Below, piece after piece: positions 8,446-29,987 of a DNA stretch of 46,114 nt. This stretch comes from an uncultured beta proteobacterium. Its GTDB lineage: Bacteria > Pseudomonadota > Gammaproteobacteria > Burkholderiales > Rhodocyclaceae. A program made the position numbers and the translations under genes. The first letter of the stretch is position 1, and the number at the start of each line of letters is the position of its first letter. The notes under the pieces are model-generated. The model worked only from the letters and a program-made list of their open reading frames with translations. It did no database searches and was not told the DNA's origin. Where the stretch lies: contig CAINHS010000071.1 of NCBI GenBank assembly GCA_903848955.1, positions 1 through 46,114 of the forward strand, written 5' to 3'.

Positions 8446-8523
8446 ACCACAGAGACACGGAGACACGGAGAAAATCGAATTCCAGGTGTGGCGCGTTTCT
8501 CTGCGACTCTGTGCCTCTGTGGT
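8446..8523. repeat. 8-base-unit hairpin repeat, copy 1 (nifK-nifT junction)
   Basis: The left arm starts ACCACAGAG-ACACGGAG-ACACGGAG and the right arm ends with its near-complement (CTCTGTGCCTCTGTGGT). The arms can pair over about 26 bases around a ~20-base loop. It belongs to the family of seven listed in the findings. Confidence 0.85.
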
Positions 8524-8540
8524 TAGGTCCTGGCGACGAA

Positions 8541-10109
8541 TCAACGCACCAGATCGTGGTTGTAGTCGGTGGTCCCCATGCCGCGGGTCTTGTCGTCCAG
8601 GTTTTCCAGCACCGCATTGGTCAGCGTGGTGAGGATCTGCATGGTGCCTTCGTAGCCCAGCGTGGTCTGCCGGTGCAGGTGATGGCGGTCGAAGATCGGG
8701 AAGCCGAGGCGGATCAGCGGCACCTCGAACTCCTTGCCTTTGTGCAGGGTGTCGCGCTGGATGTACTTGCCGTAGCTGTTGCCGATGAGGAAATCCGGCT
8801 TGTCGGTGAAGCACAGGCTGCGCAGATGCCACAGGTCGGCACCGGGATAAACCTTGGCACCGGCGCCGTAGGGCGACTCGGCGAGCATGGCTTCCATGGC
8901 CTTCTTCCACTTCTTGCTGCCGTTGTTGCAGACGATGTGGGTCGGCTCGACGCCGAATTCCATCAGCACCTTGGTCAGGCCCATGACGAAGTCGGGGTCG
9001 CCGTAGAGCGCCATCTTCTTGCCGTGCAGCCAGGCGTGCGAGTCGGTCATCATGTCCAGCAGGCGGCCGCGCTCGCGGGTCAGCGACGCCGGTATCGGCT
9101 TGCCCGTGACTTCCGACACCTTCATCAGCCAGGCATCGGTCCACTCCACGCCCATCGGGATGTTGAGTTTCGGCACCTCATGATTCCAGGTGCCCTCGAC
9201 GTATTTCCGGGTCTTGTCCAGCGCCAGCGGCTGCAGCAGGAAGGTGGTCCTGGCGTTGGGCGCGTCCTTCACTTCATCCTGCGTGGTGCCACCGGCATAC
9301 ATGGTGAAGGTGCCGTCGGCGGGCGTGTCGAGCACTTCCTCGGGATCGGACAGCATCGTGAAGTCGACGTCCATTTCCTTCAGCATGCGCTTGATGACGC
9401 GGAAGTTGCCGAGGTAGGTCTCGAAGCCCGGCACGATGTTGATCTTGCCGTTCTTGCCGACCTCCTTGCCTTCCATGGTGTTCAACGTGAAGTAGCGCAG
9501 GATGCCCTCCTCCATGTTGTCCCAGCCGGTGATGTGCGAACCGACGAAGGACGGCGTGTGGGCGAAGGGAACGGGATAGTCCTGCGGCAGGTGGCCTTCC
9601 TTGCGGGCGTTGCCGATGAAGGCGTTGAGGTCGTCGCCGATCACCTCGGCGATGCAGGTGGTGGACATCGCGATCATCTCGGCGTCATACAGTTTGACGG
9701 CGTTGGCGAGACCTTCGTGGATGTTCTTCTGGCCGCCGAAGACGGCGGCGTCTTCCGTCATCGAGTCGGCGATGATGGCCACCGGCTCCTTGAAATGACG
9801 GTTGAAGTAGGTGCGGAAGTAGGCGATGCAGCCCTGCGAGCCATGCACGTAGACCAGGGTCTTGTGGAAACCCAGGCCGCACAGCGACGAGCCCAGCGGC
9901 TGGCAGGCCTTGGCCGGATTGATGGTCAGCGCCTCGCGCTTGAAGTTGAGCTCCTGGTACTCCTGCGAGGTGGTCCACTTGAAGGTCTCTTCGATCTTCT
10001 CCTGGGTGTTCATTTCCTCGAACGAGGCCCGCTTGTTGGCGATGGTCTGCTTGTAGTCGTCGTTGCGGAACAGCGGGAAGCACGGCTTGATGTCGTCTAC
10101 GGTTTGCAT
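8541..10109 (-). CDS. nifK: Nitrogenase molybdenum-iron protein beta chain NifK
   Basis: 522 residues, the usual length. The ATG at 10109 (MQTVDDIKPC) is preceded by AAGGAGATA; an in-frame extension to 10193 lacks support. Cys69, Cys94 and Cys152 lie in the contexts CQPLGSSLCG, GSQGC and STTC, matching the three beta-chain P-cluster ligands (Cys70, Cys95 and Cys153 of Azotobacter). With NifD it forms the alpha2beta2 dinitrogenase. The N-terminal arm (KRASFEEMN) and the C-terminus (DYNHDLVR) are complete. The gene is separated from nifD by 192 bases containing a hairpin repeat and from nifT by another. It is expected to be transcribed from the nifH promoter. Confidence 0.98.
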   Translation of the reverse strand: MQTVDDIKPCFPLFRNDDYKQTIANKRASFEEMNTQEKIEETFKWTTSQEYQELNFKREALTINPAKACQPLGSSLCGLGFHKTLVYVHGSQGCIAYFRTYFNRHFKEPVAIIADSMTEDAAVFGGQKNIHEGLANAVKLYDAEMIAMSTTCIAEVIGDDLNAFIGNARKEGHLPQDYPVPFAHTPSFVGSHITGWDNMEEGILRYFTLNTMEGKEVGKNGKINIVPGFETYLGNFRVIKRMLKEMDVDFTMLSDPEEVLDTPADGTFTMYAGGTTQDEVKDAPNARTTFLLQPLALDKTRKYVEGTWNHEVPKLNIPMGVEWTDAWLMKVSEVTGKPIPASLTRERGRLLDMMTDSHAWLHGKKMALYGDPDFVMGLTKVLMEFGVEPTHIVCNNGSKKWKKAMEAMLAESPYGAGAKVYPGADLWHLRSLCFTDKPDFLIGNSYGKYIQRDTLHKGKEFEVPLIRLGFPIFDRHHLHRQTTLGYEGTMQILTTLTNAVLENLDDKTRGMGTTDYNHDLVR

Positions 10110-10220
10110 CTTTATCTCCTTTGCCCCGCCACTAATCCGAGGACGCGGGCACAAGTTATGTCCCCGCGTTTGCGGACCGGGGACGGTATCCAATCGGATG
10201 AAACTTCAGAAATTCTTTTC

Positions 10221-10292
10221 ACCACTGAGACACAGAGAACTGCAATTCAAGAACTTCCTTTGACTTTCTCTGTGTCTCTGTGACTCTGTGGT
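10221..10292. repeat. 8-base-unit hairpin repeat, copy 2 (nifD-nifK junction)
   Basis: The left arm (ACCACTGAG-ACACAGAG) has two units and the right arm has three (complement of ACCACAGAG-TCACAGAG-ACACAGAG). The arms can still pair over about 18 bases. The difference in unit number shows that arms can gain or lose 8-base steps. Confidence 0.85.
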
Positions 10293-10301
10293 TAATGGGT
10301 C

Positions 10302-11789
10302 TCAAGCAGCCTTCAGCAGCGGGTCCTTCAGCAGCGACTTGGCGGGCTTTTCCTGCCAGGGCGCCTGCATCAGGTTCCAGCAGGGATTGTTGATGGTCAG
10401 GTCCATGTCCTTGGCGAACACGGCGAAGCCGTCGCAGCCGTGGTAGGGGCCGGAGTAGTCCCACGAGTGCAGCTGGCGGAAAGGCACGCCCATCTTGTGG
10501 AATACGTATTTTTCCTTGATCCCCGAGCCGATCAGGTCGGGCTTCATGGCCTTGACGAATTCCTCGAACTCGTAGCCGGTGACATCGTCATAGATCAGGG
10601 TGGCGTCGCCCATTTCCTTGATGGTGCGGTCGTAGTCGTCGTTGTGGGCAAACTCGTAGCCGGCGCCGACCACTTCCATGCCGAGGTCCTCGTAGGCGCC
10701 GACGACGTGGCGCGGACGCAGGCCGCCGACATAGAGCATGACCTTCTTGCCCTGCAGGCGCGGCTTGTACTTGGCGATCACAGCATCCATCATCGGCGTG
10801 TACTTGGCGATCACGCGCTCGGCGCCTTCCTTGATGCTGTCGTCGAAGAAGGAGGCGATCTTGCGCAGCGATTCCCTGATCTTGGTCGGGCCGAAGAAGT
10901 TGTACTCAAGCCAGGGAATGCCGTACTTCTCTTCCATGTGGCGGCTGATGTAGTTCATCGAGCGATAGCAGTGCAGCAGGTTGAGCTTGACGTTGGGGGT
11001 GTTCTCCATCTCGGCCAGGGTGCCGTCGCCGGACCACTGGGCGACCACGCGCAGGCCCATTTCCTCGAGCAGGATGCGCGAGGCCCAGGCATCGCCGCCG
11101 ATGTTGTAGTCGCCGAGAATGGCCACGTCGTAAGGAGTCTTTTCGAAGTCCTTGCCGTCGCGGTTGGAGATGATCCAGTCGCGCACCGAGTCGTTGGCGA
11201 TGTGGTGGCCGAGCGACTGCGAAACGCCGCGGAAGCCCTCGCAGCGCACCGGCACCACCGGCTTGTTGAGTTCCTTGGCGGCCTTCTTCGCCACCGCCTC
11301 GATGTCGTCGCCGATCAAACCGACCGGACATTCGGACTGGATCGAGATGCCCTTGTTGAGCGGAAACAGGCCCTCGATCTCGCCGATCAGCTTGGCCAGC
11401 TTCTTGTCGCCGCCGAAGACGATGTCCTTCTCCTGGAAGTCGGAGGTGAAGTTCATTTCGCAAAAGGCGTCGACGCCGGTGGTGCCGACGTAGTAGTTGC
11501 GGCGTCCGGCGCGGGCATACTGGCCGCAGCCGATGGGCCCGTGGGAAATCGAGATGATGTCCTTGATCGGGCCCCACACCACGCCCTTGGATCCGGCGTA
11601 GGCGCAGCCGCGCATGGTCATCACGCCCGGCAGCGACTTGCGGTTGGAGGTGATGCACTTCTTCGACGACTCAAGTTCCTTGTCGTTGATCATGAGGTGC
11701 TTGGCGCGGTCCTTCTTCGCCTTTTCGGGATACACCTCGAGCACTTCCTGTATCAGTGCTTCGGTTTCTTCGCGGGTAAGCGCAGCCAT
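10302..11789 (-). CDS. nifD: Nitrogenase molybdenum-iron protein alpha chain NifD
   Basis: 495 residues. The ATG at 11789 has AAGGAGAAAC upstream. The numbering follows Azotobacter closely. The P-cluster ligands are Cys62, Cys88 and Cys154. The substrate-access and catalytic residues are Val70, Arg96, Gln191 and His195. The FeMo-cofactor ligands are Cys274 ([10 protein letters not shown]) and His441 ([10 protein letters not shown]), each one short of the reference numbers. All key residues are present, so this should be an active molybdenum nitrogenase, not a vanadium or iron-only form. It follows nifH after a 75-base gap that, unlike the nifD-nifK and nifK-nifT gaps, contains no hairpin repeat. 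Confidence 0.98.
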
Positions 11790-11864
11790 GTTGTTTCTCC
11801 TTGTCGGCCGCCGGCAGCTATCTGTGCACGGCGACCAAAGTCGATGGATTGAATGCGACGGGTT

Positions 11865-13801
<1,937 letters not shown>

Positions 13802-13835
13802 CGTGAAATAACCCGTTCGGAGCAACTGGTGATAG

Positions 13836-13888
13836 TCGAGCGAAGCGAGCCGGCCAGTAGCTCCCCGTGAGGGGGATGGGGGGCGGGC
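13836..13888. repeat. Bipartite REP-like repeat, copy A
   Basis: TCGAGCGAAGCGAGC followed after about ten bases by CTCCCCGTGAGGGG and a G-rich tail. The same two blocks in the same order recur at 19966-20025. It occupies the gap between draT and the SIR2-like gene. Confidence 0.6.
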
Positions 13889-14060
13889 CTTCAATTCGCC
13901 TTGCGCGTATTTCATCATCGGTGGGTGGCTGCCTCCGCCATGAGCGTTAGGGCCTTTGTCGCAAGTCCGACAATCCGCCTCTCGTCCCTTGCCGGCAGAG
14001 GGTTCCCGGCCGGGTGCGCTTCTTGCACAACAAGAAACATCGCCCCCGGAGCACACCCCC

Positions 14061-14942
14061 ATGCTTTCCACCGCACTCCTCGACCACTGGCAGGCCGGCC
14101 TTGCCGACGGCAGCATCGTTCCCTTTCTCGGTCCCGACGTGCTGGCGGATGTCAGGTCGACCGCCGACGGACGGCCGATGCCGGCCACCAGCGAGCAATT
14201 GATCCTGGCCATGAACAACGGCCAGCCGATGGCGCCGAAGCTGATGTACGAATTCCCCCGCGCCGCCATGAACATCGAACTCAAGCGCGGCCGCAGCGCC
14301 GTCACCCGCTTCCTCGACACCACCTACGGCACGACGGCATGGACGCGGGCCGCGCTGCACGACTGGCTGGCCGAAATCGCCCCGCCCTACGTCATCGACC
14401 TTAATCGCGACACGCAGTTGCAGGACGGCTACGCCGGCCGGCCGCACCTGCTGATCCTTGGCTGTGCGCGGCTCGGCGGCAGCGACTACCGCTTCAAGCT
14501 GTTCCTCTGCGACGGCGCCGGCTACACCGCCATCCGGCCGGAGGACGCCGATCCGCGCCTGCCGGTGCTGTTCAAGCCGATGGGTTCGCCCAAGCCGAAG
14601 CCGAGCTACATCGCCTCCGATGCCGACTATGTCGATTACATCACCGAGCTGATGGGCGGCTTTGCCGTGCCGGCCTTCGTCAAGGCGCGCCGCAAAGGCA
14701 AGCGCTACCTGCTGCTCGGCCTGCGGCTCAACCGCGATTCGGAACGCATGGTGCTCTCCGACCTGATCTACGATGCCGCCCGCGAACCGGCCGGCTGGGC
14801 GCTGATCGCGCAGCCAAACGACAAGGAGCGGCGCTTCTGCAAGCGGCAGAACATCGAAGTCATCGAGGCGGAAAGCAGCGATCTGTTGCAGGAGTGGAAC
14901 ACCACGCCGCAGCAGGAACCCTGCGGCGACCCGGTCAATTGA
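14061..14942 (+). CDS. SIR2-like domain protein next to draT
   Basis: A 293-residue soluble protein. The ATG at 14061 is chosen because the longer frame has no ribosome site. The fold resembles the SIR2-like (SIR2_2) group: a glycine turn after a strand at 20-27 (VPFLGPDV), an Asn/Asp strand at 111-118 (VIDLNRDT), KPMG at 172-175 in the place of the sirtuin-type KxHG, YIASDADYVD at 183-192, and LLLGLRLNRD at 217-226. The catalytic His of true sirtuins appears replaced by Met, so deacetylase activity is doubtful; NAD or ADP-ribose binding remains possible. It follows draT after a 259-base gap. A link with nitrogenase ADP-ribosylation is inferred from position only. Confidence 0.72.
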   Translation: MLSTALLDHWQAGLADGSIVPFLGPDVLADVRSTADGRPMPATSEQLILAMNNGQPMAPKLMYEFPRAAMNIELKRGRSAVTRFLDTTYGTTAWTRAALHDWLAEIAPPYVIDLNRDTQLQDGYAGRPHLLILGCARLGGSDYRFKLFLCDGAGYTAIRPEDADPRLPVLFKPMGSPKPKPSYIASDADYVDYITELMGGFAVPAFVKARRKGKRYLLLGLRLNRDSERMVLSDLIYDAAREPAGWALIAQPNDKERRFCKRQNIEVIEAESSDLLQEWNTTPQQEPCGDPVN

Positions 14943-15014
14943 CAGGCCGGCAAAATCCGTCCGTAATGCGCATTGCATCGCCTGTCATGGACATTCCGCA
15001 AGGAGGAAATCCGC

Positions 15015-15782
15015 ATGCAGCGCAAGATTCAGGGGTACGGCTGGGTACCCGATCTGCCCGACCAGCGCGACCGCCGCTATGCCGCCCCGCGCCGGGTGCT
15101 GGCGGCACTGCCGACGCGCTGCGACCTGCGCCGGAACTGCCCGCCGGTACTCGACCAGGGCGAACTCGGCAGCTGCACCGCCCACGCCATCGCCAACGCC
15201 CATCGCTACGACCAGATGAAGCAGGGCAGCACCGCGCATTTCCTGCCGTCGCGCCTGTTCATCTACTACAACGAACGCGCCCTGGAGGGCACGGTACGCG
15301 AAGACGCCGGCGCCCAGATCCGCGACGGCATCAAGACCCTGGCGAAACAGGGCGCCTGCCCCGAAGCCCTGTGGCCCTATGACATTGCCAGGTTCGCCAA
15401 ACGGCCGCCGGCCGCCGCCTACCGCGAGGCGGAAAAGCACCAGGCCATCCTCTACCAGCGCCTCAACCCGACCCTGACCCAGCTCAAGGGCTGCCTCGCC
15501 GAAGGCTACCCCTTCGTCTTCGGCTTCTCGGTCTACGAAAGCTTTGAGTCCGCCGCCGTGGCGAAGAACGGCAAGGTCCCCCTGCCCGCCCGCGACGAAC
15601 ACAGCCTCGGCGGCCACGCCGTGCTCGCCACCGGCTACGACGACCGCCGGCAGCACTTCATTGCCATGAACTCCTGGTCCGCCACCTGGGGCGACAAGGG
15701 TTACTTCTACCTGCCCTACGCCTACGCCACCGATAGCGGACTGGCCGATGATTTCTGGACGGTCAGGGTGGTGGAGACATGA
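15015..15782 (+). CDS. Papain-like (C1 family) cysteine peptidase
   Basis: 255 residues with an excellent ribosome site (AAGGAGGAAA) before the ATG at 15015. The catalytic residues of clan CA are visible: Gln48 and Cys54 in LDQGELGSCTAHA, His201 in GGHAVLATGYDD, and Asn219 in AMNSWSATWG. There is no signal peptide and no pro-domain; the protein opens directly with YGWVPDLPDQRD, typical of short bacterial C1 peptidases. It should be cytoplasmic and active as synthesised. It lies 72 bases after the SIR2-like gene on the same strand, so the two may be co-transcribed with draT. No substrate can be named. Confidence 0.85.
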   Translation: MQRKIQGYGWVPDLPDQRDRRYAAPRRVLAALPTRCDLRRNCPPVLDQGELGSCTAHAIANAHRYDQMKQGSTAHFLPSRLFIYYNERALEGTVREDAGAQIRDGIKTLAKQGACPEALWPYDIARFAKRPPAAAYREAEKHQAILYQRLNPTLTQLKGCLAEGYPFVFGFSVYESFESAAVAKNGKVPLPARDEHSLGGHAVLATGYDDRRQHFIAMNSWSATWGDKGYFYLPYAYATDSGLADDFWTVRVVET

Positions 15783-20039: not shown

Positions 20040-20085
20040 GGCGGCAGCATAGTGGTCAAGCTGGTTTGACCACTATGCTGCCGCC
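20040..20085. repeat. Perfect 20-bp inverted repeat across a ferredoxin stop codon
   Basis: Bases 20040-20059 are the exact complement of 20066-20085, with a 6-base loop. On the minus-strand transcript the first arm encodes the last residues of the 2Fe-2S ferredoxin, the loop and the start of the second arm hold the final codons and stop, and the rest of the second arm is untranslated. There is no T-run after it. Confidence 0.95.
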
Positions 20086-20343: not shown

Positions 20344-20374
20344 GAGTTTTCTCCTGTGATGAAAGCGGTAGGCT

Positions 20375-20773: not shown

Positions 20774-20812
20774 GGTTACTTTCCGGGTGGCGCCGCCAGG
20801 CACCCAAACATA

Positions 20813-20849: not shown

Positions 20850-20891
20850 TCGTCGAATTTGCGCCGACGCGGCGCGATGAACGCAGAGCGT

Positions 20892-21170
20892 TCATCGCGC
20901 CGCGATCTCGGCCTGCGCCTCTGCCCAGCGCTCGGGCGGGATGCCGGTCAGCGATCCGGGCGGATTCATCTCCACGCCCAACTCGTCGAGAATCGCCCCC
21001 TCGATCGGGCAGATCGCCACGCACTGGGCAACGGCAAAGTCGCCGACGCACTCGGTGCATTTGTCGCGGTCGACCAGGAAGTGGGGCGCTGCCTCGTAAA
21101 TGGCCTTGTTCGGGCACAGGGGAACGCAGGCCCAGCAGTTCACGCAGCTTTCGATGATTTCGAGGGCCAT
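20892..21170 (-). CDS. fdxN: FdxN-type 2[4Fe-4S] ferredoxin downstream of nifB
   Basis: 92 residues, starting at the ATG at 21170, 11 bases after the nifB stop. The cluster motifs are CVNCWACVPLCP and CTECVGDFAVAQC...CP, the second with the extended loop common to nif ferredoxins. About 30 residues follow the second cluster (LGVEMNPPGSL...), longer than in classic FdxN. NifB-FdxN pairs are common. FdxN supplies electrons to nitrogenase or to the radical-SAM reaction of NifB. Confidence 0.9.
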   Translation of the reverse strand: MALEIIESCVNCWACVPLCPNKAIYEAAPHFLVDRDKCTECVGDFAVAQCVAICPIEGAILDELGVEMNPPGSLTGIPPERWAEAQAEIAAR

Positions 21171-21180
21171 GACAATGTCT

Positions 21181-22674
21181 TCAGGCGCATTTCGCCGCAA
21201 GGGGTCCGGCATCAAGCTTGCCGCCGGCCAGCATTTCATTCCACACCGCCATCACGGCCTCTTCGACCGGCTCCATGGCATGTTCGCCGTTGGGCTGGAT
21301 GCCGGCGGCTTCGAGCCTGCCCCAGGGTTCGATGCCGATCCTGGAGCACAGTACCGCTTCGCAGCCGGCGAGCGCCCTGAGAGTCCGCTCGAGCACCGGT
21401 TCGCCCTCGCCGCAGCTGTCGTCGCCCGAGCAATAGGCATCGGCGCGGCGATGTCCGACCAGTCTGGCGCCGCCTGCCGAAGCTTCATAGACGAGGAATT
21501 CCCTGGCGTGGCCGAAATGGACGCCGACCACCCCGTTCTTCGCCGCCACCGCCATCAGCACCGGACGGCCGACCGGCTTCTGCGGCTCGATGCGGGGCGT
21601 GAAACGGATGACCTGCGGCGCGGGCGCGTCGTGAATTCCGGCGCGTTTGGCCGCCAGTTCCGCCGTGAGCTTCGCCCGCAACTCTGCGCGCACGGCCATT
21701 GCGGCCTCGTAGTCAATGTCCATGGCCTCGATCTTGTCCATGGTGAACTCGTCGCCACGATCCTCGCCGAGCATGCCGACGGCATCGGCGCGGCACTGGC
21801 GGCAATGGCGCATCATGTTCATGTCGCCTTCGCAGGCATCCTGCAGGGTCTTCAGTTCCGCCGGGCTGGGACTGCGTTGCCCCATCACGCCGTAGAAGGT
21901 GCCGTGTTCCGCTTCGGCGATCAGCGGCATGACGTTGTGCAGGAAGGCACCCTTGGCCTTGACGATCTTCGACACCGCCTTCAGGTGCTCGTCGTTGACG
22001 CCGGGGATCAGCACCGAATTGACCTTGACCAGGATGCCGCGCGCGACCAGCATTTCCAGCCCCTTCTGCTGTTGCCCGATGAGGATGGCGGCGGCCTCGC
22101 GGCCATGGATGCGCCGGTTCTGCCAGAAGATCCATGGATAGATCAGGGCGCCGACGTCGGCATCGACACAGTTGATGGTGATGGTGACGTGGTCGATGTT
22201 GTGTTTCGCCAGTTCGTCGATGTGCCCGGGCAGCATGAGGCCGTTGGTCGACAGGCAAAGCTTGATGTCCGGAGCCTTGGCGGCCAACTGGCGGAAGGTG
22301 TCGAAGGTGCGCGCCGGGTTGGCCAGCGGATCGCCGGGGCCGGCGATGCCCAGCACCGTCATCTGCGGGATGGCGGCGGCGACGGCCAGCGTCTTCTTCA
22401 CCGCCTGGTCGGGCGTCAGCAGTTCGGAGACGACACCAGGACGCGACTCGTTGGCGCAGTCGTACTTGCGGTTGCAGTAATGGCACTGGATGTTGCAGGC
22501 CGGCGCCACCGCCACGTGCATGCGGGCGAAGTAGTGGTGGGCGTCTTCCGAATAGCAGGGATGGTCCTGCACCCTGGCACGGAGGGCGTCGGACATGCCG
22601 TCCGCCTGGCTGGACGGGGCACCGCAACTGCCGGCACTGCAGCCGCTGGCTTTGGGCGTTTCGAAGGCTGTCAC
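21181..22674 (-). CDS. nifB: FeMo-cofactor biosynthesis protein NifB
   Basis: 497 residues from a GTG at 22674 with TGGAGAATC upstream. The radical-SAM motif is CNIQCHYC (Cys60, Cys64, Cys67). GIAGPGDPLANP and LSTNGLMLP bind SAM; HCRQCRADA provides further cluster ligands. From about residue 375 the protein continues as a NifX-like domain (VGVHFGHAREFLVYE), the long form of NifB. It fuses two [4Fe-4S] clusters and adds the central carbon to make NifB-co, the precursor of FeMo-co. It leads an operon with fdxN, nifO-like, two 2Fe-2S ferredoxins and draG. Confidence 0.97.
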   Translation of the reverse strand: MTAFETPKASGCSAGSCGAPSSQADGMSDALRARVQDHPCYSEDAHHYFARMHVAVAPACNIQCHYCNRKYDCANESRPGVVSELLTPDQAVKKTLAVAAAIPQMTVLGIAGPGDPLANPARTFDTFRQLAAKAPDIKLCLSTNGLMLPGHIDELAKHNIDHVTITINCVDADVGALIYPWIFWQNRRIHGREAAAILIGQQQKGLEMLVARGILVKVNSVLIPGVNDEHLKAVSKIVKAKGAFLHNVMPLIAEAEHGTFYGVMGQRSPSPAELKTLQDACEGDMNMMRHCRQCRADAVGMLGEDRGDEFTMDKIEAMDIDYEAAMAVRAELRAKLTAELAAKRAGIHDAPAPQVIRFTPRIEPQKPVGRPVLMAVAAKNGVVGVHFGHAREFLVYEASAGGARLVGHRRADAYCSGDDSCGEGEPVLERTLRALAGCEAVLCSRIGIEPWGRLEAAGIQPNGEHAMEPVEEAVMAVWNEMLAGGKLDAGPLAAKCA

Positions 22675-22709
22675 GGAAGATTCTCCACAAGTGGGCTCCC
22701 CTTCCCTTC

Positions 22710-22726
22710 AGCAACGCCTGTGCCAG
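22710..22726 (-). promoter_or_regulatory. Sigma54 promoter of the nifB operon
   Basis: Read on the minus strand: CTGGCAC-AGGCG-TTGCT, a perfect TGGCAC-N5-TTGC consensus with GG and GC ten bases apart. Predicted start near 22699 leaves about 25 bases of leader with the GGAGAA ribosome site of nifB. Confidence 0.9.
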
Positions 22727-22765
22727 GCGCTAACTCATTGATTACGCTTCACGGCACGGACCGAT

Positions 22766-22781
22766 TGTCGGGAATGCCACA
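22766..22781. promoter_or_regulatory. NifA site upstream of nifB
   Basis: TGT-CGGGAATGCC-ACA, an exact TGT-N10-ACA. It lies only about 42 bases upstream of the -24 box, closer than the usual 80-150 bases, so it may be partly replaced by a site not recognised here. Confidence 0.6.
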
Positions 22782-22908
22782 AGCGCCCGGGGGCGGCATT
22801 GCGACAGAATCCGCGACACAAAGTGTTTCATCTGCAGTTGGAAGTTCTCGTCCCTGACCCGGCGCTCTTCCTCATGCCCGCCGGGAAATTTCAGCGAGCT
22901 GGCGCCGC

Positions 22909-24483
22909 TCAGATCTGTCTGACCTCGATGTTGAGGGTCTGGATGCGATAGGCGATCTGGCGTGGCGTCATGCCCAGCAGCCGCGCCGCACGGGCCTGCA
23001 CCCAGCCGGCCTGCTCCAGCGCGGCAACGACGCGCCGGCGTTCGCTCTGTTCGCCGCCGGGCTCGACCTCCTCCGCGTCGACATCAGCCGCTGCCTGGAA
23101 ACGGACGACCGGTGCGGCAGCAGTGATGGCGCTACGGCCCGGGGCGGCGCGCGGCTTGTCGATGCGGATCAGGTCGGCATCGATTTCGCCGTTGGTCGAC
23201 ATCACGGCAGCCCGCTCCAGGCAGTTCTCCAGTTCGCGCACGTTGCCGGGCCAGGCGTGTTGCGCCAGCCTCCTCTGCGCGGCGGCGGTCAGGCTCAGCG
23301 GCCGGCTCTGGACGCCGCCGAGGCGCTCGAGCAGATGACGGGCGATTTCCGGCAGGTCTTCCATGCGCTCGCGCAGCGGCGGCGGCAGGATGGGCATGAC
23401 GTTGAGGCGGTAGTACAAGTCCTCGCGGAAATCGCCGGCCTCCACCGCCGCCTCCAGATCGCGATGAGTCGCCGCGATCAGTCGCACATCGACCTTGACC
23501 GTGCGGCTGCCGCCGACCCGTTCCAGTTCGCCTTCCTGCAGCACGCGCAGCAACTTGGCCTGGAAGGCCGGCGAGATGTCGCCGATTTCGTCGAGAAACA
23601 GCGTGCCGCCATCGGCCATTTCGAAGCGTCCCTTGCGCGAACTCACGGCGCCGGTGAAGGAGCCTTTTTCATGACCGAAGAGTTCCGACTCGAGCAGGTT
23701 CTCCGGCAGCGAGGCGCAATTGAGCCGCACGTACGGCCCCCGCGCGCGGGGCGAGTTGTAGTGGATGGCGTTGGCGATCAGTTCCTTGCCGGTACCGGTC
23801 TCACCGCGGATCAGCACCGTGGTCGGCCATTTCGCCACCATGCGGATCTGGTCGAAGATGCGCCGCATGGGGTCGGAGTGTCCCACCAGGTTGTCGAAGC
23901 CATGGCGCTGGCGCACCGTGCGCCGCAGGGTATCGCGCTCTTCGGCGATGGACTTGCGGTCACGGTCGACGTCAAGCGAGAGGCGCACGCTCTGGCCGAT
24001 CAGGTTGGCCACCATCTCGACGAAGCGCACGCGCTCCACCAGCAGTCCGTCATCCGGGGCGTCGGGCTGCACCGCGAGCACGCCCTGCAGCGCGCCGCCG
24101 ACCTGGATCGGTGCTGCGATGAAAGGCAGATCCTTGTCGTAGAGCCCGAGCCGGTTGAGAAAACGCGGCTCGTCACCGAGGCGGGGGATCGCCACGGTGC
24201 GGCCGCCCTCGAGGATCATGCCGATCACGCCCTCGCCCGACTGGTAGCGCACCGGTTCATAGACCTCGCTGTCGAGACCATGGACGGCATGCACCGTCAG
24301 ATCACCGGCATCGGGATCGACCACGGTCACCATGCCGCCGCCGAGGTGACCGGTGATCTCCAGCGTGCGCAGTACCTCGCGCAGGGTCTGCTGAAAATCC
24401 AGCGAGCGCGACAGCACCTGCGAGACGCGGAACAGCATCTCGTAGTGGGCGCGCAGCAGGACGGGCGAACGGTCATCGCTCAT
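22909..24483 (-). CDS. nifA: Nif-specific transcriptional activator NifA
   Basis: 524 residues from the ATG at 24483, which overlaps the nifL stop (ATGA). An N-terminal GAF domain (about 15-170) is followed by a sigma54-activator AAA+ domain: Walker A GETGTGKELIA, Walker B GGTLFLDEIG and the sigma54-contact loop GSFTGA, a variant of GAFTGA. A Fis-type helix-turn-helix closes the protein (ARLLGMTPRQIAYRI). The inter-domain linker lacks the Cys-rich motif of oxygen-sensitive NifA proteins, so control by NifL is expected. It should activate the sigma54 promoters described in this window. Confidence 0.97.
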   Translation of the reverse strand: MSDDRSPVLLRAHYEMLFRVSQVLSRSLDFQQTLREVLRTLEITGHLGGGMVTVVDPDAGDLTVHAVHGLDSEVYEPVRYQSGEGVIGMILEGGRTVAIPRLGDEPRFLNRLGLYDKDLPFIAAPIQVGGALQGVLAVQPDAPDDGLLVERVRFVEMVANLIGQSVRLSLDVDRDRKSIAEERDTLRRTVRQRHGFDNLVGHSDPMRRIFDQIRMVAKWPTTVLIRGETGTGKELIANAIHYNSPRARGPYVRLNCASLPENLLESELFGHEKGSFTGAVSSRKGRFEMADGGTLFLDEIGDISPAFQAKLLRVLQEGELERVGGSRTVKVDVRLIAATHRDLEAAVEAGDFREDLYYRLNVMPILPPPLRERMEDLPEIARHLLERLGGVQSRPLSLTAAAQRRLAQHAWPGNVRELENCLERAAVMSTNGEIDADLIRIDKPRAAPGRSAITAAAPVVRFQAAADVDAEEVEPGGEQSERRRVVAALEQAGWVQARAARLLGMTPRQIAYRIQTLNIEVRQI

Positions 24484-26042
24484 GAGCGTCGTTTCACCGG
24501 CAAGACCACGCGCACGCGGCAACCCGACACCTTCGCCGGGTCGATCTCTATCGTCCCGCCATGATCCGCCGCCACCTGCTGCGCCGCGGCGAGGCCGGTG
24601 CCGAGATGCCGGTTGCCCTCGCGCTTGGTGGTGTAGAAGGGCTCGAAGACCTTGATTTGCTGCGCCGGCGGAACACCCGGGCCGCTGTCTTCGACGAGTA
24701 TCTCGATGCTGCCCAGCTGCGCCCGGGTGATCATCCGCAGTTCGCGCTCGCGCCAGCCACGGGAACTCATGGCGTCGATGGCATTGTCGATCAACACCTT
24801 GAACAGCGAACGCAGCTTGTTGGGATAACCCTGCAGCGCCGGCAGCATGGCCTGCGGCTTCCAGCTGACGCGAATGCCGGCCGCCAGCATCCGGTTCGTC
24901 GCCAGGTCAAGCACATCGCGCAGCAGTTCATTGACATTGATCGCACCGGAAGGCTCGCGCGTCTCGCTGGGAATCATGGCGCGCAATTCGTCCAGTGCCC
25001 GCTGCCCGCCGGCCATGGCATCGGCCAGCGCCAGCACCATGGGATCGTTCCCGCCATTGCGTCGCGCAAGCATGCCCGCCGCGGAGGCCATCATGTTGAG
25101 CGGGCCCTCGAGGCGGAAGGTGGCGGCCGACAGGCTTTCGCGCAGCACCGAGACGCGATCCTCCTCGGCCATGACTGCCTGCAACGCGGCCACCCGCGCC
25201 TTTTCCTGCTGGCCGCGCAGGCCGGTGATGTCCTTCGCCACCAGCAACAGGTAATCGCGCCCGCTGCCGGCAAAGAAGGCGTCCGCCGCACTGTTGTCCT
25301 CGCGCACACGGCTGCCCGAGCAGGAGAACCAGCGCGGCGGCCTGCCGTCGGGCAGATCGAGGCGTATCTCGCGGTCGAGAAAAGCGTAGCCCGAACTTCT
25401 CCGCCCGAGCGCGCCCTCGGCTTCGAGCCCGGCGCGTATCGAGGTCATGAGCATAGACGCCGGCTCAGCCATGCCGAGATCGGCCTGCAGCTTCTTGTAT
25501 TCGTGGTTGTCGAGTACCACCCGGTCGCCGACGTCAAGCAGCGCGATGACCATCGGCGCCGCGTCCACCACCGATTCGATCAATTCCTTCTGGTTCTTCA
25601 CCTGGCATTCGAGGCGATGCATGGCGGTAACGTCGCGGTGCATGCCGAGGAAATTGAACACCTCGCCGGCGGCATCCACCACCGGCGAAATGTTCAGCTC
25701 GGCAAGATACTGGCTGCCGTCCTTGCGCCGGTTGATCAGGCGCCCGCTCCACGACTCGCCGCGCGAAATGCTCTGCCACAGGGATGTATACACCTCCGGC
25801 GGCGTGGTCTTGTTGGAAAGCATGGACTCGTTGCGTCCGGCCGCTTCTTCGGCGCTGTAGCCGGTGACGCGGGTGAAGGCGGGATTGACATAGATGATGT
25901 TGCCGCGCACGTCGGTGATCGATATCGCCATGTCGGCCTGATCCACGGTGTGCTGGAACACCCGCGGATGAATGCTCGCCGGTGCCCCTGCGCCAGGTTG
26001 CGCTTCGCTGCCGGCAAGCGCTTTCACTTGTTTCTTCGCCAT
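24480..26042 (-). CDS. nifL: Nitrogen fixation negative regulator NifL
   Basis: 520 residues from the ATG at 26042, nearly the length of Azotobacter NifL. The first PAS domain (about 25-145) has the flavin-type signatures of NifL: GRNESMLSNKTTP, NRRKDGSQYLAEL and LGMHRDVT. A second PAS domain follows, then a helical linker and a histidine-kinase-like ATP-binding domain (DNAIDAM, DSGPGV, GTGLAAAQQ). The H-box region (LSAATFRLEGPLNMM) has no phospho-acceptor histidine, as expected for NifL, which binds NifA directly. It senses redox state by FAD, adenine nucleotides and nitrogen status. Confidence 0.95.
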   Translation of the reverse strand: MAKKQVKALAGSEAQPGAGAPASIHPRVFQHTVDQADMAISITDVRGNIIYVNPAFTRVTGYSAEEAAGRNESMLSNKTTPPEVYTSLWQSISRGESWSGRLINRRKDGSQYLAELNISPVVDAAGEVFNFLGMHRDVTAMHRLECQVKNQKELIESVVDAAPMVIALLDVGDRVVLDNHEYKKLQADLGMAEPASMLMTSIRAGLEAEGALGRRSSGYAFLDREIRLDLPDGRPPRWFSCSGSRVREDNSAADAFFAGSGRDYLLLVAKDITGLRGQQEKARVAALQAVMAEEDRVSVLRESLSAATFRLEGPLNMMASAAGMLARRNGGNDPMVLALADAMAGGQRALDELRAMIPSETREPSGAINVNELLRDVLDLATNRMLAAGIRVSWKPQAMLPALQGYPNKLRSLFKVLIDNAIDAMSSRGWRERELRMITRAQLGSIEILVEDSGPGVPPAQQIKVFEPFYTTKREGNRHLGTGLAAAQQVAADHGGTIEIDPAKVSGCRVRVVLPVKRRS

Positions 26043-26081
26043 CTCGCACCATCCTCGACTGAAATCCTTCCTCACCCTTCA

Positions 26082-26097
26082 GCAGATTCCGTGCCGG
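26082..26097 (-). promoter_or_regulatory. Candidate sigma54 promoter of nifLA
   Basis: Minus strand: CCGGCACG-GAAT-CTGC, with GG and GC ten bases apart. The first base of the -24 box and the T of the -12 box are off consensus. Predicted start near 26070 leaves a 28-base leader before the nifL ATG at 26042, which supports that start over the GTG at 26075. It implies autoactivation by NifA. Confidence 0.6.
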
Positions 26098-26138
26098 GCC
26101 GGATTTCTGCGCCGAATTTGCCAAAGTTTGTAGCTGTT

Positions 26139-26154
26139 TGTAGGACTTGCGACA
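26139..26154. promoter_or_regulatory. NifA site between nifLA and rnf
   Basis: TGT-AGGACTTGCG-ACA, an exact TGT-N10-ACA. It lies about 115 bases upstream of the rnf -24 box and about 43 bases upstream of the nifLA -24 box, so one site could serve both directions. Confidence 0.7.
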
Positions 26155-26266
26155 CACACGGAGGCCGGCACCGGCAGCACGGCGATAGCCACCGTCGCCG
26201 GAAAACCCCCATGCTGGTGCGGGGTTAAGGATCAATGCACGGCTTTGGTGTGCGCTGCAACATGGG

Positions 26267-26282
26267 ATGGCACGGAAACTGC
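26267..26282 (+). promoter_or_regulatory. Sigma54 promoter of the rnf operon
   Basis: TGGCACG-GAAA-CTGC with GG at 26269-26270 and GC at 26281-26282, exactly ten bases apart. Predicted start near 26294 places it inside the longest reading frame of rnfG, which therefore must start later, at the ATG at 26316. Confidence 0.8.
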
Positions 26283-26315
26283 GAAGCATCGGGCAAACGG
26301 ATCATTCCCCAGATC

Positions 26316-26954
26316 ATGGACAGCCCTCAGACAATTCCTACCGAACCGGTCGCGATTCAGCCGCGAACCCTGATGCACGGGGTGATTCTCGGCAGTTTCT
26401 GTCTCGGCTTCGGCCTCATCCTCGCCGTCACCGACCGGCTGACGATCGCCGACATCGGCGCACGCGCCGTGGAGGACCGGCAGAGTTCCCTGAGCCAGGT
26501 GATCCCCGACAACATCCGCGACAACAATCCGGTCACGGATTCCGTGGTGATGAAGAACGCCCAGAACCGGGAAATCACCGTCTATCGCGCCCGCAAGAAC
26601 GGCCGGGTCACCGGCGTCGCCTACGAAATCTACGGCACCGGCTATGCCGGCGAGATAAAGCTGATGATGGGCATCGCCGCCGACGGCAAGCTGCTCGGCG
26701 TGCGCGTGCTGGCGCACAAGGAAACGCCGGGGCTGGGCGACAAGATCGAAGAGAAGAAGGGCGACTGGATTCTGCGCTTCAGCGGCCTGTCCCTGGGCGA
26801 CCCGCCGGCTGAGCGCTGGAAAGTGAAGAAGGACGGCGGCCAGTTCGACCAGTTCGCCGGGGCGACGATCACGCCGCGCGGCGTGCTTGTCGCGATCCGC
26901 AGCGGTCTGGATTTCTTCGCCGCGAACAAAGCCACGCTAACGGAGGCGAAATGA
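26316..26954 (+). CDS. rnfG: Rnf electron-transport complex subunit G
   Basis: 212 residues from the ATG at 26316, chosen because a sigma54 promoter covers the upstream in-frame codons. A single membrane helix (about 20-40, GVILGSFCLGFGLILAV) anchors a periplasmic FMN-binding domain, with ETPGLGDKIEE and the flavin-attachment sequence FAGATITPRGV, in which Thr carries the covalent FMN. Rnf couples ion flow to reverse electron transfer from NADH to ferredoxin, giving low-potential electrons to nitrogenase. Being first in the operon is unusual, because rnfA normally leads. A hairpin repeat separates it from rnfE. Confidence 0.93.
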   Translation: MDSPQTIPTEPVAIQPRTLMHGVILGSFCLGFGLILAVTDRLTIADIGARAVEDRQSSLSQVIPDNIRDNNPVTDSVVMKNAQNREITVYRARKNGRVTGVAYEIYGTGYAGEIKLMMGIAADGKLLGVRVLAHKETPGLGDKIEEKKGDWILRFSGLSLGDPPAERWKVKKDGGQFDQFAGATITPRGVLVAIRSGLDFFAANKATLTEAK

Positions 26955-26973
26955 AGCTCAAAGGCTTGGTTGA

Positions 26974-27108
26974 ACCACAGAGGCGCAGAGATCACAGAGG
27001 AACTGCAGCGCACGACGCTGCAACACCGGGTTGCCCGGCCGGCGAACAGCCACTGAGCTGTAACGCTTTACCTCATCGCCATTCTCTGTGCCTCTGCGTC
27101 TCTGTGGT
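26974..27108. repeat. 8-base-unit hairpin repeat, copy 3 (rnfG-rnfE junction)
   Basis: Left arm ACCACAGAG-GCGCAGAG-ATCACAGAG; the right arm is its near-complement ending in CTCTGTGGT. Copy with the longest spacer (about 78 bases). It mixes both unit types. The right arm runs directly into the GTGAGG ribosome site of rnfE. Confidence 0.85.
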
Positions 27109-27120
27109 GAGGTTCGAGCA

Positions 27121-27795
27121 ATGACAAGCAGCTACAAGACCATCGTCAAGGACGGCCTGTGGGACAACAACGGCGTCTTCAGCATGTTGCTCGGCATGTG
27201 TCCGGCGATGGCGATGACCACCAGCGCCACCAACGGTTTTGGCATGGGACTGGCCACCGCCGCGGTGATGGCGGCATCCAGCTTCCTCGTCGCCGTGTTC
27301 CGCAAGCGCATCACTCAGGAAGTGCGCATCCCCGTCTATATCCTGATCGTCGCCGCGATGGTGACGCTGGTGGATCTCGCCATGAACGCCTGGATGCACG
27401 AACTGTACAAGGTGCTGGGCCTGTTCATTCCGCTGATCGTCTCCAACTGCCTGCCGCTGGCACGGCTCGAGGCCTTCGCCGCCAAGTCGCCTGCCCTGCC
27501 CTCGCTGGCGGACGGCCTGTTCATGGGCATCGGCTTCACCATCGCGCTGACCGCCATCGGCGCCGTGCGCGAGATCCTCGGCTCGGGCACCCTGTTCGCC
27601 GATGCCTCGCTGCTGCTGGGCCCCGCCTTCAAGGCCATCGAACTGCGCATCCTGCCGGCTGACATGGGCGTGCTGATGATGATCCTGCCGCCCGGCGGCT
27701 TCCTCGTCACCGGCCTGCTGGTCGTCGTCAAGCGCCTGCTCGACCTGCGCGCCGGCAAGGAAATCCAGATGGGCGGGGCGCACAGCGTGGCCTGA
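27121..27795 (+). CDS. rnfE: Rnf electron-transport complex subunit E
   Basis: 224 residues and six predicted membrane helices. The N-terminal part (NNGVFSMLLGMCPAMAMT) has the conserved Cys of RnfE, and the second half repeats the theme (FIPLIVSNCLPLARLEAF). RnfA and RnfE are homologous subunits that carry a shared membrane [2Fe-2S] cluster through those cysteines and form the core of the ion pump. The ATG at 27121 has GTGAGG upstream, formed by the edge of the hairpin repeat. The gene is flanked on both sides by repeats. Confidence 0.95.
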   Translation: MTSSYKTIVKDGLWDNNGVFSMLLGMCPAMAMTTSATNGFGMGLATAAVMAASSFLVAVFRKRITQEVRIPVYILIVAAMVTLVDLAMNAWMHELYKVLGLFIPLIVSNCLPLARLEAFAAKSPALPSLADGLFMGIGFTIALTAIGAVREILGSGTLFADASLLLGPAFKAIELRILPADMGVLMMILPPGGFLVTGLLVVVKRLLDLRAGKEIQMGGAHSVA

Positions 27796-27819
27796 CGAGA
27801 AATGAAAATCTCAAACTTC

Positions 27820-27927
27820 ACCGCAGAGGCGCAGAGGCGCAGAGGCAACGCAGAGGAAAGCAAAAGCGATCGCGAATTCAGGTTTTTCTCTGCGTCGCTT
27901 ACCTCGGCGCCTCTGCGCCTCTGCGGT
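27820..27927. repeat. 8-base-unit hairpin repeat, copy 4 (rnfE-rseC junction)
   Basis: Left arm ACCGCAGAG-GCGCAGAG-GCGCAGAG, right arm CTCTGCGCCTCTGCGGT. This is the GC type, with a perfect match over about 24 bases plus an inner CGCAGAGGAAA / TTTTTCTCTGCG pair. Confidence 0.9.
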
Positions 27928-27974
27928 AAGCCTTTCAACGCCTTTCCGCAGACCCCATCCACAGGGCGCGGCGC

Positions 27975-28469
27975 ATGAACCCGCTTGCCACTTCCGATTT
28001 CCACACGGTCGAAGGCATCGCCCGCGTGGTGTGCCTCGAGGGATCGGTGGCCTGGCTCGAACCGGAACAGACGGGCGGTTGCGGGAGTTGCGCCGCGTCG
28101 TCGGGTTGCGGCGCGAAGGGAATAGGCACGGTCGCCAGCCGCATGGAAATCAGGCGCTTCCCGCTAGCCAACGTCGACGGCCTCAGGGTCGGCGAACGCA
28201 TCGTGGTCGGCGTCTGCGACCGCGCCCTGATCCATGCCGCGCTGACCGCCTACGCCCTGCCGCTGGCAACGGCGCTGGGCGCCGGTGGTCTGGCGGAATG
28301 GGCGATGGGCAGCGACCTCGCGACCATGGCGGCGACGGCGGCCGGGCTGTCCGCCGGCATCCTCGCAGCGCGCATCGGCGCCGGCCGGCTCGCCGCGCGC
28401 GGCGACCTGGCGCCGCACTTCCTGCGTCGGGCGCGGCCCGGCGAAACCTGCGGCACGGGCGAACAGTGA
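27975..28469 (+). CDS. SoxR-reducing system protein RseC family
   Basis: 164 residues. The cysteine cluster GGCGSCAASSGCG near residue 40 and two central membrane helices (about 85-125) identify the RseC family, known from the rsx/rnf systems and from sigmaE regulation. It sits between rnfE and rnfA, inside the operon and bounded by hairpin repeats, so it is probably an accessory of the Rnf complex, perhaps in redox control or cluster assembly. The start at 27975 is an ATG with only a moderate ribosome site. Confidence 0.85.
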   Translation: MNPLATSDFHTVEGIARVVCLEGSVAWLEPEQTGGCGSCAASSGCGAKGIGTVASRMEIRRFPLANVDGLRVGERIVVGVCDRALIHAALTAYALPLATALGAGGLAEWAMGSDLATMAATAAGLSAGILAARIGAGRLAARGDLAPHFLRRARPGETCGTGEQ

Positions 28470-28478
28470 ATGCCATGA

Positions 28479-28551
28479 ACCACAGAGACACAGAGGCACG
28501 GAGCAGAACAAACCTCTTTGGCTTTCCTCTGCGTCTCTGTGCCTCTGTGGT
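28479..28551. repeat. 8-base-unit hairpin repeat, copy 5 (rseC-rnfA junction)
   Basis: Left arm ACCACAGAG-ACACAGAG-GCACGGAG, right arm CTCTGCGTCTCTGTGCCTCTGTGGT (given here in two blocks: CTCTGCGTCTCTGTG then CCTCTGTGGT). Short loop of about 22 bases. Its right arm abuts the GAGGAG ribosome site of rnfA, 12 bases before the ATG. Confidence 0.9.
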
Positions 28552-28563
28552 GAGGAGTTGGAA

Positions 28564-29145
28564 ATGAAGGATTTTGTACTGATGATGATCGGCGCGGCCC
28601 TGGTGAACAACGTCATCCTGGCGCGCTTCCTCGGCCTGTGTTCCTTCATGGGCGTCACCACGCGCATCGACACCGCGGCCGGCATGGGTCTGGCGACAAC
28701 CTTCGTCATCACCGTCTCATCGATGGCCGACTGGGCCGTGCAGCACTACCTGCTCGACGCCTACGGCCTCGGCTTCCTGCGCACCGTCACCTTCATCCTG
28801 GTCATCGCCAGCGCCGTGCAATTCACCGAGATGACCATCAAGAAAGTATCGCCCACCCTGTTCCGGATGCTCGGCATCTACCTGCCGCTGATCACCACCA
28901 ATTGCGCCGTGCTCGGCGTCGCCCTGTTGCTGGTCGAAGGACACATGAGCTTCATCGGCTCGACCATGTTCGCCTTCGCCTCCTCGCTCGGCTACAGCCT
29001 GGTCATGGTGATCTTCGCCGGCCTGCGCGAACGCCTGGCGCTGGCCCGGGTGCCGCGCCTGTTCGCCGGCCCGCCGATCGGCTTCATCGTCGCCAGCCTG
29101 CTGGCAATGGCCTTCATGGGTTTTTCCGGCATCAGTGCGGGGTAG
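28564..29145 (+). CDS. rnfA: Rnf electron-transport complex subunit A
   Basis: 193 residues with six membrane helices. Conserved features are NNVILARFLGLCSFMGV near the N-terminus and LGIYLPLITTNCAVLG in the centre, each with the cysteine that contributes to the membrane [2Fe-2S] cluster shared with RnfE. Topology is opposite to RnfE. The ATG at 28564 follows a strong GAGGAG. A larger upstream reading frame that crosses the repeat is spurious. Confidence 0.96.
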   Translation: MKDFVLMMIGAALVNNVILARFLGLCSFMGVTTRIDTAAGMGLATTFVITVSSMADWAVQHYLLDAYGLGFLRTVTFILVIASAVQFTEMTIKKVSPTLFRMLGIYLPLITTNCAVLGVALLLVEGHMSFIGSTMFAFASSLGYSLVMVIFAGLRERLALARVPRLFAGPPIGFIVASLLAMAFMGFSGISAG

Positions 29146-29155
29146 GCCTGGCTTG

Positions 29156-29289
29156 ACCACAGAGACACAGAGACACAGAGAAAGACAATGCATTGATGAA
29201 AACCAAACGGAAGAAAACACACGATCAGGAAACAGCCGGATGCAAGCCAGAGATTCGCGTCACCTCTGCGTCTCTGTGTCTCTGTGATA
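29156..29289. repeat. 8-base-unit hairpin repeat, copy 6 (rnfA-rnfB junction)
   Basis: Left arm ACCACAGAG-ACACAGAG-ACACAGAG, the cleanest set of units. The right arm (CTCTGTGTCTCTGTG) lacks the final GGT and diverges at the edge. The spacer is about 79 bases. Confidence 0.85.
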
Positions 29290-29326
29290 AAGGTCTTGCG
29301 GTTTTCAAAACAGTGGGAGCATCGCC

Positions 29327-29860
29327 ATGCTGATCGCAGTCGGAAGTCTCGCCGTCATGGGTCTCGCGCTGGGCGGCCTGCTGGGTACCGCCGCGCGCTA
29401 CCTGGCGGTCGAGGAGAATCCCGTCGAGGGACAACTGAAGGAAATGCTGCCGGGATCGCAATGCGGCCAGTGCGGCTACGTCGGCTGCGGCCAGGCGGCG
29501 GCGGCCCTGGCGACAGGCCAGGCGCCGGTAACACTGTGCCCGCCGGGCGGCAAGGCGCTGGCCGAAGCGCTCGCCGCCCGACTCGGCGTCAAGGTGGATC
29601 TCTCCGCACTGACCGACACCGGACCGCAACTGGCACTGGTGGCGGAAGAAATCTGCATCGGCTGCTGCCGCTGCCTCAAGACCTGCCCGACCGACGCCAT
29701 CGTCGGCGCCGCCAAGCAGATCCACAACGTGATCCGCGAAGCCTGCACCGGATGCGGCGCCTGCATCGACAACTGCCCCACCGAAGCCATGTCCATGGTG
29801 CCGGTTGCCGTCAGCCTGCAGCACTGGATCTGGCCCAAGCCCGCCAGCGCAACCGCCTGA
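29327..29860 (+). CDS. rnfB: Rnf electron-transport complex subunit B
   Basis: 177 residues from the ATG at 29327 with GGGAG upstream. A short N-terminal membrane helix is followed by a [4Fe-4S] motif ([12 protein letters not shown]...LCPPGG) and a two-cluster ferredoxin domain ([12 protein letters not shown] and [12 protein letters not shown]). RnfB takes part in ferredoxin docking on the cytoplasmic side. The second motif has an extra Cys (CC). All expected ligands are present. Confidence 0.95.
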
Positions 29861-29889
29861 GAGGCACTGGCATGAAAACATCAAAATCG

Positions 29890-29987
29890 ACCGCAGAGGC
29901 GCAGAGGCGCAGAGACGACGCCGAGGAAACATCCTTCCTGATGTTGAATTTCTCTGCGAATCCTCTGCGCCTCTGCGCCTCTGCGGT
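29890..29987. repeat. 8-base-unit hairpin repeat, copy 7 (rnfB-rnfC junction)
   Basis: Left arm ACCGCAGAG-GCGCAGAG-GCGCAGAG, right arm CTCTGCGCCTCTGCGCC followed by TCTGCGGT. GC type, as in copy 4. The last 8-base-unit hairpin in the window: the later junctions C/D and D/H have none. Confidence 0.9.

Follow-up and report, generated by a model that had tools for sequence, protein, structure and literature searches.

Our results suggest that seven hairpins lying between nif and rnf genes in a 46,114-nucleotide stretch of DNA from an uncultured beta proteobacterium of the Rhodocyclaceae (contig CAINHS010000071.1 of assembly GCA_903848955.1; hereafter the window) are probably gene-less, non-autonomous copies of a family of nuclease-bearing elements. 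A complete element of this family consists of an inverted arm of tandem 8-, 9- or 10-base units, a gene encoding a GxxExxY nuclease of ~120–150 residues, and a complementary arm. The hairpins are more likely to be what a repeat left behind as it spread in the genome than to be purpose-built control elements. From the comparison of sequences, we infer that the nuclease is the driver of their movement.

A hairpin family dispersed over the genome

The first-pass annotation of the window had raised the question of how many copies the whole genome holds and whether they prefer operon junctions. The answer is a dispersed family, of which at least 54 two-armed copies were read in the 3.62-Mb genome, 52 of the 54 in co-directional junctions. 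The catalogue covers 38 stretches around listed arms together with the window, and 54 of its 60 rows are two-armed; the six single-arm rows, some of them decayed or contig-end copies and some chance matches, were excluded. Weaker copies lie outside the catalogue (e.g., C145:21349-21471), and the true copy number thus exceeds 54. A pattern of two units followed by GGT matched the genome 86 times, compared to 0 matches for the reversed pattern, which excludes a chance origin. With up to three mismatches allowed, the counts were 317 and 121, respectively. Almost all copies (52 of 54) measure 67–135 bp, and the remaining two (256 and 477 bp) contain remnants of a nuclease gene.

The copies split into a CAC and a CGC class, and in 51 of 54 both arms belong to the same pure class. 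This explains an earlier observation, namely that the arms of one copy match each other better than the arms of different copies, from which paired change or repeated insertion had been deduced. The better match holds as agreement in class. Inside a class it disappears: identity over 17 nt was 0.948 for true pairs and 0.950 for shuffled pairs, with 1789 of 2000 shuffles reaching at least the observed value. Hence, the arms match because the copy belongs to the CAC or the CGC class, and not because of paired change within the copy. Covariation of the arms is absent within either class, and on this shuffle test paired arm change was rejected as a sign of structure.

The terminal profile of the 54 copies reads ACCRCAGAG at one end and CTCTGYGGT at the other. 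A symmetric AT-rich stretch of ~10 bases lies outside the ACC/GGT ends, also after the copies are turned to the direction of the operon. The copies are clustered, as 23 of 54 have a neighbor within 4 kb, compared to a mean of 6.0 for random placement (reached in 0 of 5000 trials). Six of the 14 close pairs mix the CAC and CGC classes, which speaks for favored regions over local copying alone. At trpG/trpD (locus L037, 5800-5910, on C7 of this genome, G000), the left arm of a hairpin copy is broken by a short palindromic insert; thus, repeats insert into repeats. Another dispersed repeat of ~100 bp, with ~78–90% identity, was seen at L058 (10330-10430, C89 of G000) and in many places in genus relatives.

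With genes called by a home-made gene caller, the two copies outside co-directional junctions were both convergent, and none was divergent or inside a gene. The copy-free junctions of the same stretches comprised 260 co-directional, 35 convergent and 37 divergent cases. The preference for operon junctions that had been suspected is therefore borne out, both against these junction counts (P = 2e-4) and against intergenic length (P = 8e-8). The median gap was 16 bases to the upstream stop and 28 bases to the downstream start. For the CACCAAG hairpins (period 9) of three other genomes of the family, 22 copies in 20 stretches were placed as 18 co-directional, 2 convergent, 2 called inside genes and 0 divergent. 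The corresponding background counts were 57, 13 and 8.

Such placement might be explained if the hairpins were retained for a function in the RNA, where they would set the stability of operon transcripts or the ratio of subunits. This would be in line with the absence of all 54 copies from divergent junctions, with the occupation of five consecutive rnf junctions and with strong predicted stems (z = −4.1 to −12.2 in the window). Yet, we consider it an unlikely explanation. The copies are spread over the genome in many unrelated operons, which means that the hairpins are not specific to nif or rnf. Their arms show no covariation within a class, and the same operons of relatives lack the hairpins or carry unrelated palindromes at these places. 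A secondary effect of the hairpins on expression is possible.

The comparison with relatives is most direct at the rnf genes. Six relatives have a close rnfB, and none of them carries these hairpins at rnfA/rnfB or rnfB/rnfC. Eight of these 12 junctions are 2–18 bases long, and four contain other sequence, palindromic in three cases. At rnfA/rnfB, four relatives have 15–18 bp, G021 has another palindrome, and G007 has other sequence (read only as a translated frame). At rnfB/rnfC, four of the same six have ~2–12 bp, and G016 and G005 have other palindromic sequence. The short and empty junctions agree with the repeated insertion that had been offered alongside paired change. Other palindromic repeats at these junctions of relatives (L074, L076 and L078) are of the GTCATTCCCGCGAAAGCGGG, CCCTCTCCC and CTTCGACAGGCTCAGGGCGAAC types, and rnf junctions thus accept several repeat families.

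Two other junctions were compared among relatives. At trpE/trpG, 12 relatives of the genus were available: the junction is short and empty in G002, G005, G007, G009, G010, G013 and G014, contains unrelated sequence in G011, and carries a nuclease element in G003, G004, G008 and G015 (in G003 on the trpE side only). A junction on C57 is short in 11 of 13 relatives and holds a CGCAGAG hairpin in our genome, a CACCAAG hairpin in G007, and a CACAGAG hairpin of period 9 in G013. The insert is flanked by ATG on both sides in our genome and in G007, and G002 has a single ATGA there. Over the whole set, an ATG occurred in the last 24 nt upstream of 28 of 52 copies, compared to 16.5 after shuffling. 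TGA stops, which bear on ATGA as a target, showed no preference, with 36 of 51 at element junctions and 191 of 261 elsewhere.

The GxxExxY nuclease and its arms

A profile search with PF13366 found three places in this genome, and all three (3/3) lie between inverted arms of the hairpin type. The gene at ribF/ileS (C98, CGCAGAG arms) is disrupted by a stop and by a change of frame, the gene at trpE/trpG (C7, CACAGAG arms) has lost its middle, and the third (C28, CACGGCG arms) is a 3-prime fragment. In the relative G002, the corresponding ribF/ileS junction holds an intact nuclease gene, which also lies between CGCAGAG arms. Since all three nuclease genes found in our genome are broken, and its copies matching one query hairpin over most of the length are ~74–87% identical, the hairpin family in this genome is probably old and no longer moving. 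RibF reads at its end into the element arm at L031 (~1312-1350) and at L115 (up to 1465), and thereby acquires the tail RRGAEAQR.

The encoded protein belongs to the PF13366/TIGR04256 GxxExxY family of small PD-(D/E)XK nucleases, and three members passed the curated cut-off of 35 bits by a wide margin (139.7, 148.6 and 135.3 bits). In an alignment of 77 sequences, D58, K70 and Q82 are invariant and E68 occurs in at least 90%; we take these residues to be the catalytic motif. A structure model of the L151 member, built with the 77 sequences, reached a predicted local distance difference test score (pLDDT) of 95.7 and a predicted template modeling score (pTM) of 0.86. The closest solved folds in Foldseek were Cas4-like SSO0001 and lambda-type exonucleases. 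A sequence search of the PDB with the nuclease gave no match. The ratio of nonsynonymous to synonymous substitution rates (dN/dS) was 0.05–0.13 in six of nine nuclease pairs drawn from 19 of the 21 family loci; of the other three pairs, two had saturated dS and one was identical, so that no ratio resulted. This low ratio indicates that the GxxExxY protein is under selection.

Other affiliations of the gene were considered. An origin from plasmids or phages was rejected, as a search at E 1e-5 with the L115 nuclease matched 8 of 72,556 plasmid records and none of the 50,697 phage records. A role as a defense gene was also rejected, with just weak Cas4-like matches in PADLOC (best E 5e-4). Among the named control genomes, PF13366 was also found in Corynebacterium glutamicum, Lactococcus lactis and Sulfolobus acidocaldarius.

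The link between arms and nuclease extends far beyond this genome. From a scan that listed at least 579 GxxExxY loci, we kept the best 80, which represent many phyla as well as archaea, and searched the 75 of them that have at least 100 bp on both sides for an inward tandem CRCNNAG pair. Such a pair was present upstream at 64 of 75 loci, downstream at 60, on both sides at 53, and on either side at 71. In the controls, the wrong strand gave 11 and 15 of 75, and random windows of the same loci (one strand) gave 11 of 1021. The arm units at GxxExxY loci have a period of 8, 9 or 10 bases. The two arms of a locus were more similar than the 99th percentile of mismatched loci for 36 of 78 members of the 80-locus set and for 9 of 19 family loci, which is a strict test because mismatched loci often share similar units.

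The units also follow the phylogeny of the nuclease. On a tree of 98 of 101 nucleases (three with stop codons were excluded), with unit labels for 80 of the 98, the unit period changed 11 times, compared to 34.7 times for shuffled labels, and the core dinucleotide changed 26 times, compared to 35.7; for each, 0 of 300 shuffles reached the observed value. The tree is based on few columns, and many of its forks are unresolved. The signal of period and core persisted when labels were shuffled inside phyla (64 loci).

A third line of evidence comes from the gene-less hairpins in 101 genomes of the family, of which 21 contain PF13366. All 12 genomes with at least 10 CTCTGYG pairs have PF13366 (P = 2e-10, at a threshold set post hoc), and at a threshold of at least four pairs 13 of 19 genomes have it (P = 4e-7). 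Likewise, all five genomes with at least five CTTGGTG pairs have PF13366 (P = 3e-4). The arm core of the nuclease, or of its remnant, equals the CTCTGYG hairpin core in eight of the 12 rich genomes (G000, G002, G049, G051, G071, G089, G094 and G115), and the CTTGGTG unit agrees with the nuclease in G045, G105 and G071, and in one arm in G104. The unit ATCTGCGNNATCTGCG, seen round the nucleases of G002, G005 and G057, served as a prediction made in advance: these genomes had 104, 44 and 6 matches, respectively, compared to at most 3 in each of the other 98 genomes and 0 in our own, so that exactly the three predicted genomes were picked out of 101. Reversed-pattern controls gave 12 matches for CTCTGYG in our own genome, at most 4 for CTTGGTG, and at most 1 for ATCTGCGNNATCTGCG.

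An alternative explanation might be that the hairpins are mobilized by something else, with the GxxExxY gene as cargo or as a domesticated passenger in some of the copies. We regard this as doubtful, though it deserves serious attention. PD-(D/E)XK nucleases are not known to transpose by themselves, and no transposition was observed here. Moreover, six of the 101 genomes have a few hairpins (4 to 8 CTCTGYG matches) and lack PF13366, and for three CTCTGYG-rich genomes (G079, G104 and G113) the nuclease that was found carries a different unit. Conversely, the arms at 71 of 75 loci over many phyla, a unit period and core that track the tree of the nuclease, and the co-occurrence with hairpins of three different units, one of them predicted in advance, speak against a passenger.

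The six genomes that lack PF13366 and the three with another unit also weigh against the nuclease-element reading itself, as do several further results. In G043, the CTCTGYG core at the nuclease is confined to the outermost unit. The CTTGGTG unit does not agree in G115, which has 11 such pairs and no such nuclease seen, and in G079 there is one CTTGGTG pair despite its CACCAAG nuclease. None of the three patterns is abundant in five of the 21 genomes with PF13366 (G059, G084, G095, G107 and G119). Hairpins without a matching nuclease could be leftovers after loss of a nuclease. In the cross-taxon set, four of 75 loci fail the CRCNNAG test, of which two (L140 and L160) have arms of other units; 18 of the 98 nucleases carry no unit label, and the A/G state of unit position 2 does not track the nuclease tree within phyla. 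Because the nuclease and its arms are physically linked, co-descent alone would yield the tree result. Nuclease-bearing loci are less strictly operonic than the gene-less hairpins, with 43 of 58 having co-directional neighbors compared to a background of 102 of 156 (orientation was classed for 58 of 80 loci; 10 had short flanks and 12 were not called). A repeat of 4 nt or more around the start codon downstream was found at 19 of 52 copies, which is not above the 16.4 for shuffled pairing. The Foldseek matches to solved folds have weak E-values, with a best of 4e-3 and none at or below 0.001. Finally, the comparisons are at species level only, and no movement was observed.

Proposed movement and comparison with known systems

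If the nuclease does drive the hairpins, the following sequence of events can be envisaged. The GxxExxY nuclease would recognize the tandem units of the arms and cut or nick the element and the target DNA, thereby spreading its own element as well as gene-less hairpins. The copies that persist would be mainly those that lie between co-transcribed genes, next to a stop and a start codon, so that both genes stay intact. At trpE/trpG, the element end GGTGAAAGG, with GAAAGG a few bases before the start codon, may replace a lost ribosome-binding site, and an upstream ATG may start the nuclease frame, which runs through the arm. A bolder version, which we put forward only tentatively, is that GxxExxY nucleases are the sole protein of a new class of transposase-free mobile elements. 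In this version, the tandem 8-, 9- and 10-base units would be read as a helical ruler, and the nuclease would move itself, together with the gene-less hairpins that share its unit, into operon junctions at start codons, with both neighbors still translatable.

The elements resemble REPINs, composites of repetitive extragenic palindromes (REPs), and the REP-associated tyrosine transposases (RAYTs) in several respects. According to two reports (PMC3116915; PMC3733652), these too are short, dispersed, extragenic hairpins; one genome can hold several sequence families of them, and they are tied to a chromosomal nuclease gene, which the repeats can flank. REPs are described in the latter report as lying mostly between unidirectional or convergent genes (PMC3733652), which is also the extragenic placement found here (52 + 2 of 54). 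Size and hairpin form likewise fit that description, and our hairpins might thus be thought ordinary REP or REPIN elements moved by a RAYT (Y1) transposase. This is very improbable, since the Y1_Tnp profile PF01797 gave 0 matches in G000, compared to matches in 5 of 14 named control genomes, and RAYT was rejected as a candidate. The ends of our hairpins are ACC…GGT, and neither a GTAG nor a CGTC tag occurs at the repeat end in the terminal profile of the 54 copies. Furthermore, the enzyme here is a PD-(D/E)XK nuclease instead of a Y1 HUH transposase, the arms tied to it are tandem 8–10-mers, and complete elements hold the gene between both arms.

Miniature inverted-repeat transposable elements (MITEs) have inverted terminal repeats and no coding capacity, and are related to a larger element with a gene. 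Our hairpins share with them terminal inverted repeats without coding capacity and a related element with a gene between the same repeats. They differ from MITEs in having no classical transposase and in an inverted repeat that is built as a tandem array, and a target duplication is not established for them. In homing endonucleases, a small nuclease gene is the only gene of a selfish unit that occupies one allelic site. The elements described here agree in having a small nuclease gene as the sole gene of a selfish unit, but differ in occupying many non-allelic junctions and in having gene-less copies in the same genome.

Among the papers searched, which were largely open-access, we found no published account of these repeats or of their link with GxxExxY. 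The papers found that name GxxExxY mention it in passing, as does a paper on algae for PF13366. Of twelve exact unit strings, one was matched in the literature, in a mouse paper, and among the titles listed none concerned bacterial repeats of this kind. As far as searched, the flanking arms and the matching gene-less hairpins of GxxExxY genes are new, and the element is widespread and apparently undescribed. Our results offer a testable role for a common nuclease family that is named only after a motif, and tie this family to hairpins of a kind that occupies the operon junctions of many genomes. Should the nuclease be their mobilizer, the REPIN/RAYT way of life would exist with a second enzyme that is unrelated to the first. 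The way in which unit period follows nuclease lineage provides a direct starting point for learning how repeated DNA could be read by a minimal nuclease. Our results also call for caution: hairpins in nif or rnf operons are not regulatory by default, and a regulatory role needs further proof.

The seven hairpins of the window

All seven hairpins reported in the first-pass annotation were found again at the positions given there, and so was their distribution over five rnfG-to-rnfC junctions, nifD/nifK and nifK/nifT, and no other operon of the window. The arms consist of two to three 8-mers, usually starting with ACC[A/G]CAGAG and ending with CTCTG[T/C]GGT, and the spacer between the arms varies from ~5 to 100 bases. 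Copies 8446, 10221 and 29156 differ from the arm consensus by single bases.

On the nif side, copy 1 (8446..8523, CAC class) has CACGGAG units and lies at nifK/nifT, where both genes are on the minus strand. Copy 2 (10221..10292, CAC class) lies at nifD/nifK and starts with ACCACTGAG; its arms comprise two and three units, which upholds the unequal unit number described for it before. On the rnf side, copy 3 (26974..27108, 135 bp) at rnfG/rnfE has a first unit of CAC and a second of CGC type. It is followed by copy 4 (27820..27927, CGC class) between rnfE and an rseC-like gene, copy 5 (28479..28551, CAC class) between this gene and rnfA, copy 6 (29156..29288, CAC class), which ends with GAT, at rnfA/rnfB, and copy 7 (29890..29987, CGC class) at rnfB/rnfC. 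Hence, a copy is present in 5/5 junctions from rnfG to rnfC; rnfC and rnfD overlap.

A Pfam check of the flanking genes identified NifT, two nitrogenase component 1 proteins (nifK and nifD) and an FMN-binding protein (rnfG), and on the rnf side Rnf-Nqr subunits, an RseC-like protein, an RnfB-type ferredoxin, RnfC and RnfD; the letters of the Rnf subunits were assigned partly by gene order. Folding of the RNA, which had been proposed as a check, gave the strong stems mentioned above (z relative to mononucleotide shuffles). A known RNA family was rejected as a candidate, as Rfam at gathering scores gave 0 matches in the window. The density of 7 copies per 46 kb compares to 0.69 expected (P ~8e-6), a post hoc value for a window that was chosen for its hairpins.

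Besides the seven, no two-armed copy occurs elsewhere in the window. One single-arm match (36542-36558, two mismatches) appears to be due to chance. The window also contains a perfect 20-base inverted repeat with a 6-base loop outside the hairpin family (20040-20085) and a perfect 17-base inverted repeat with a 3-base loop (20868-20904).

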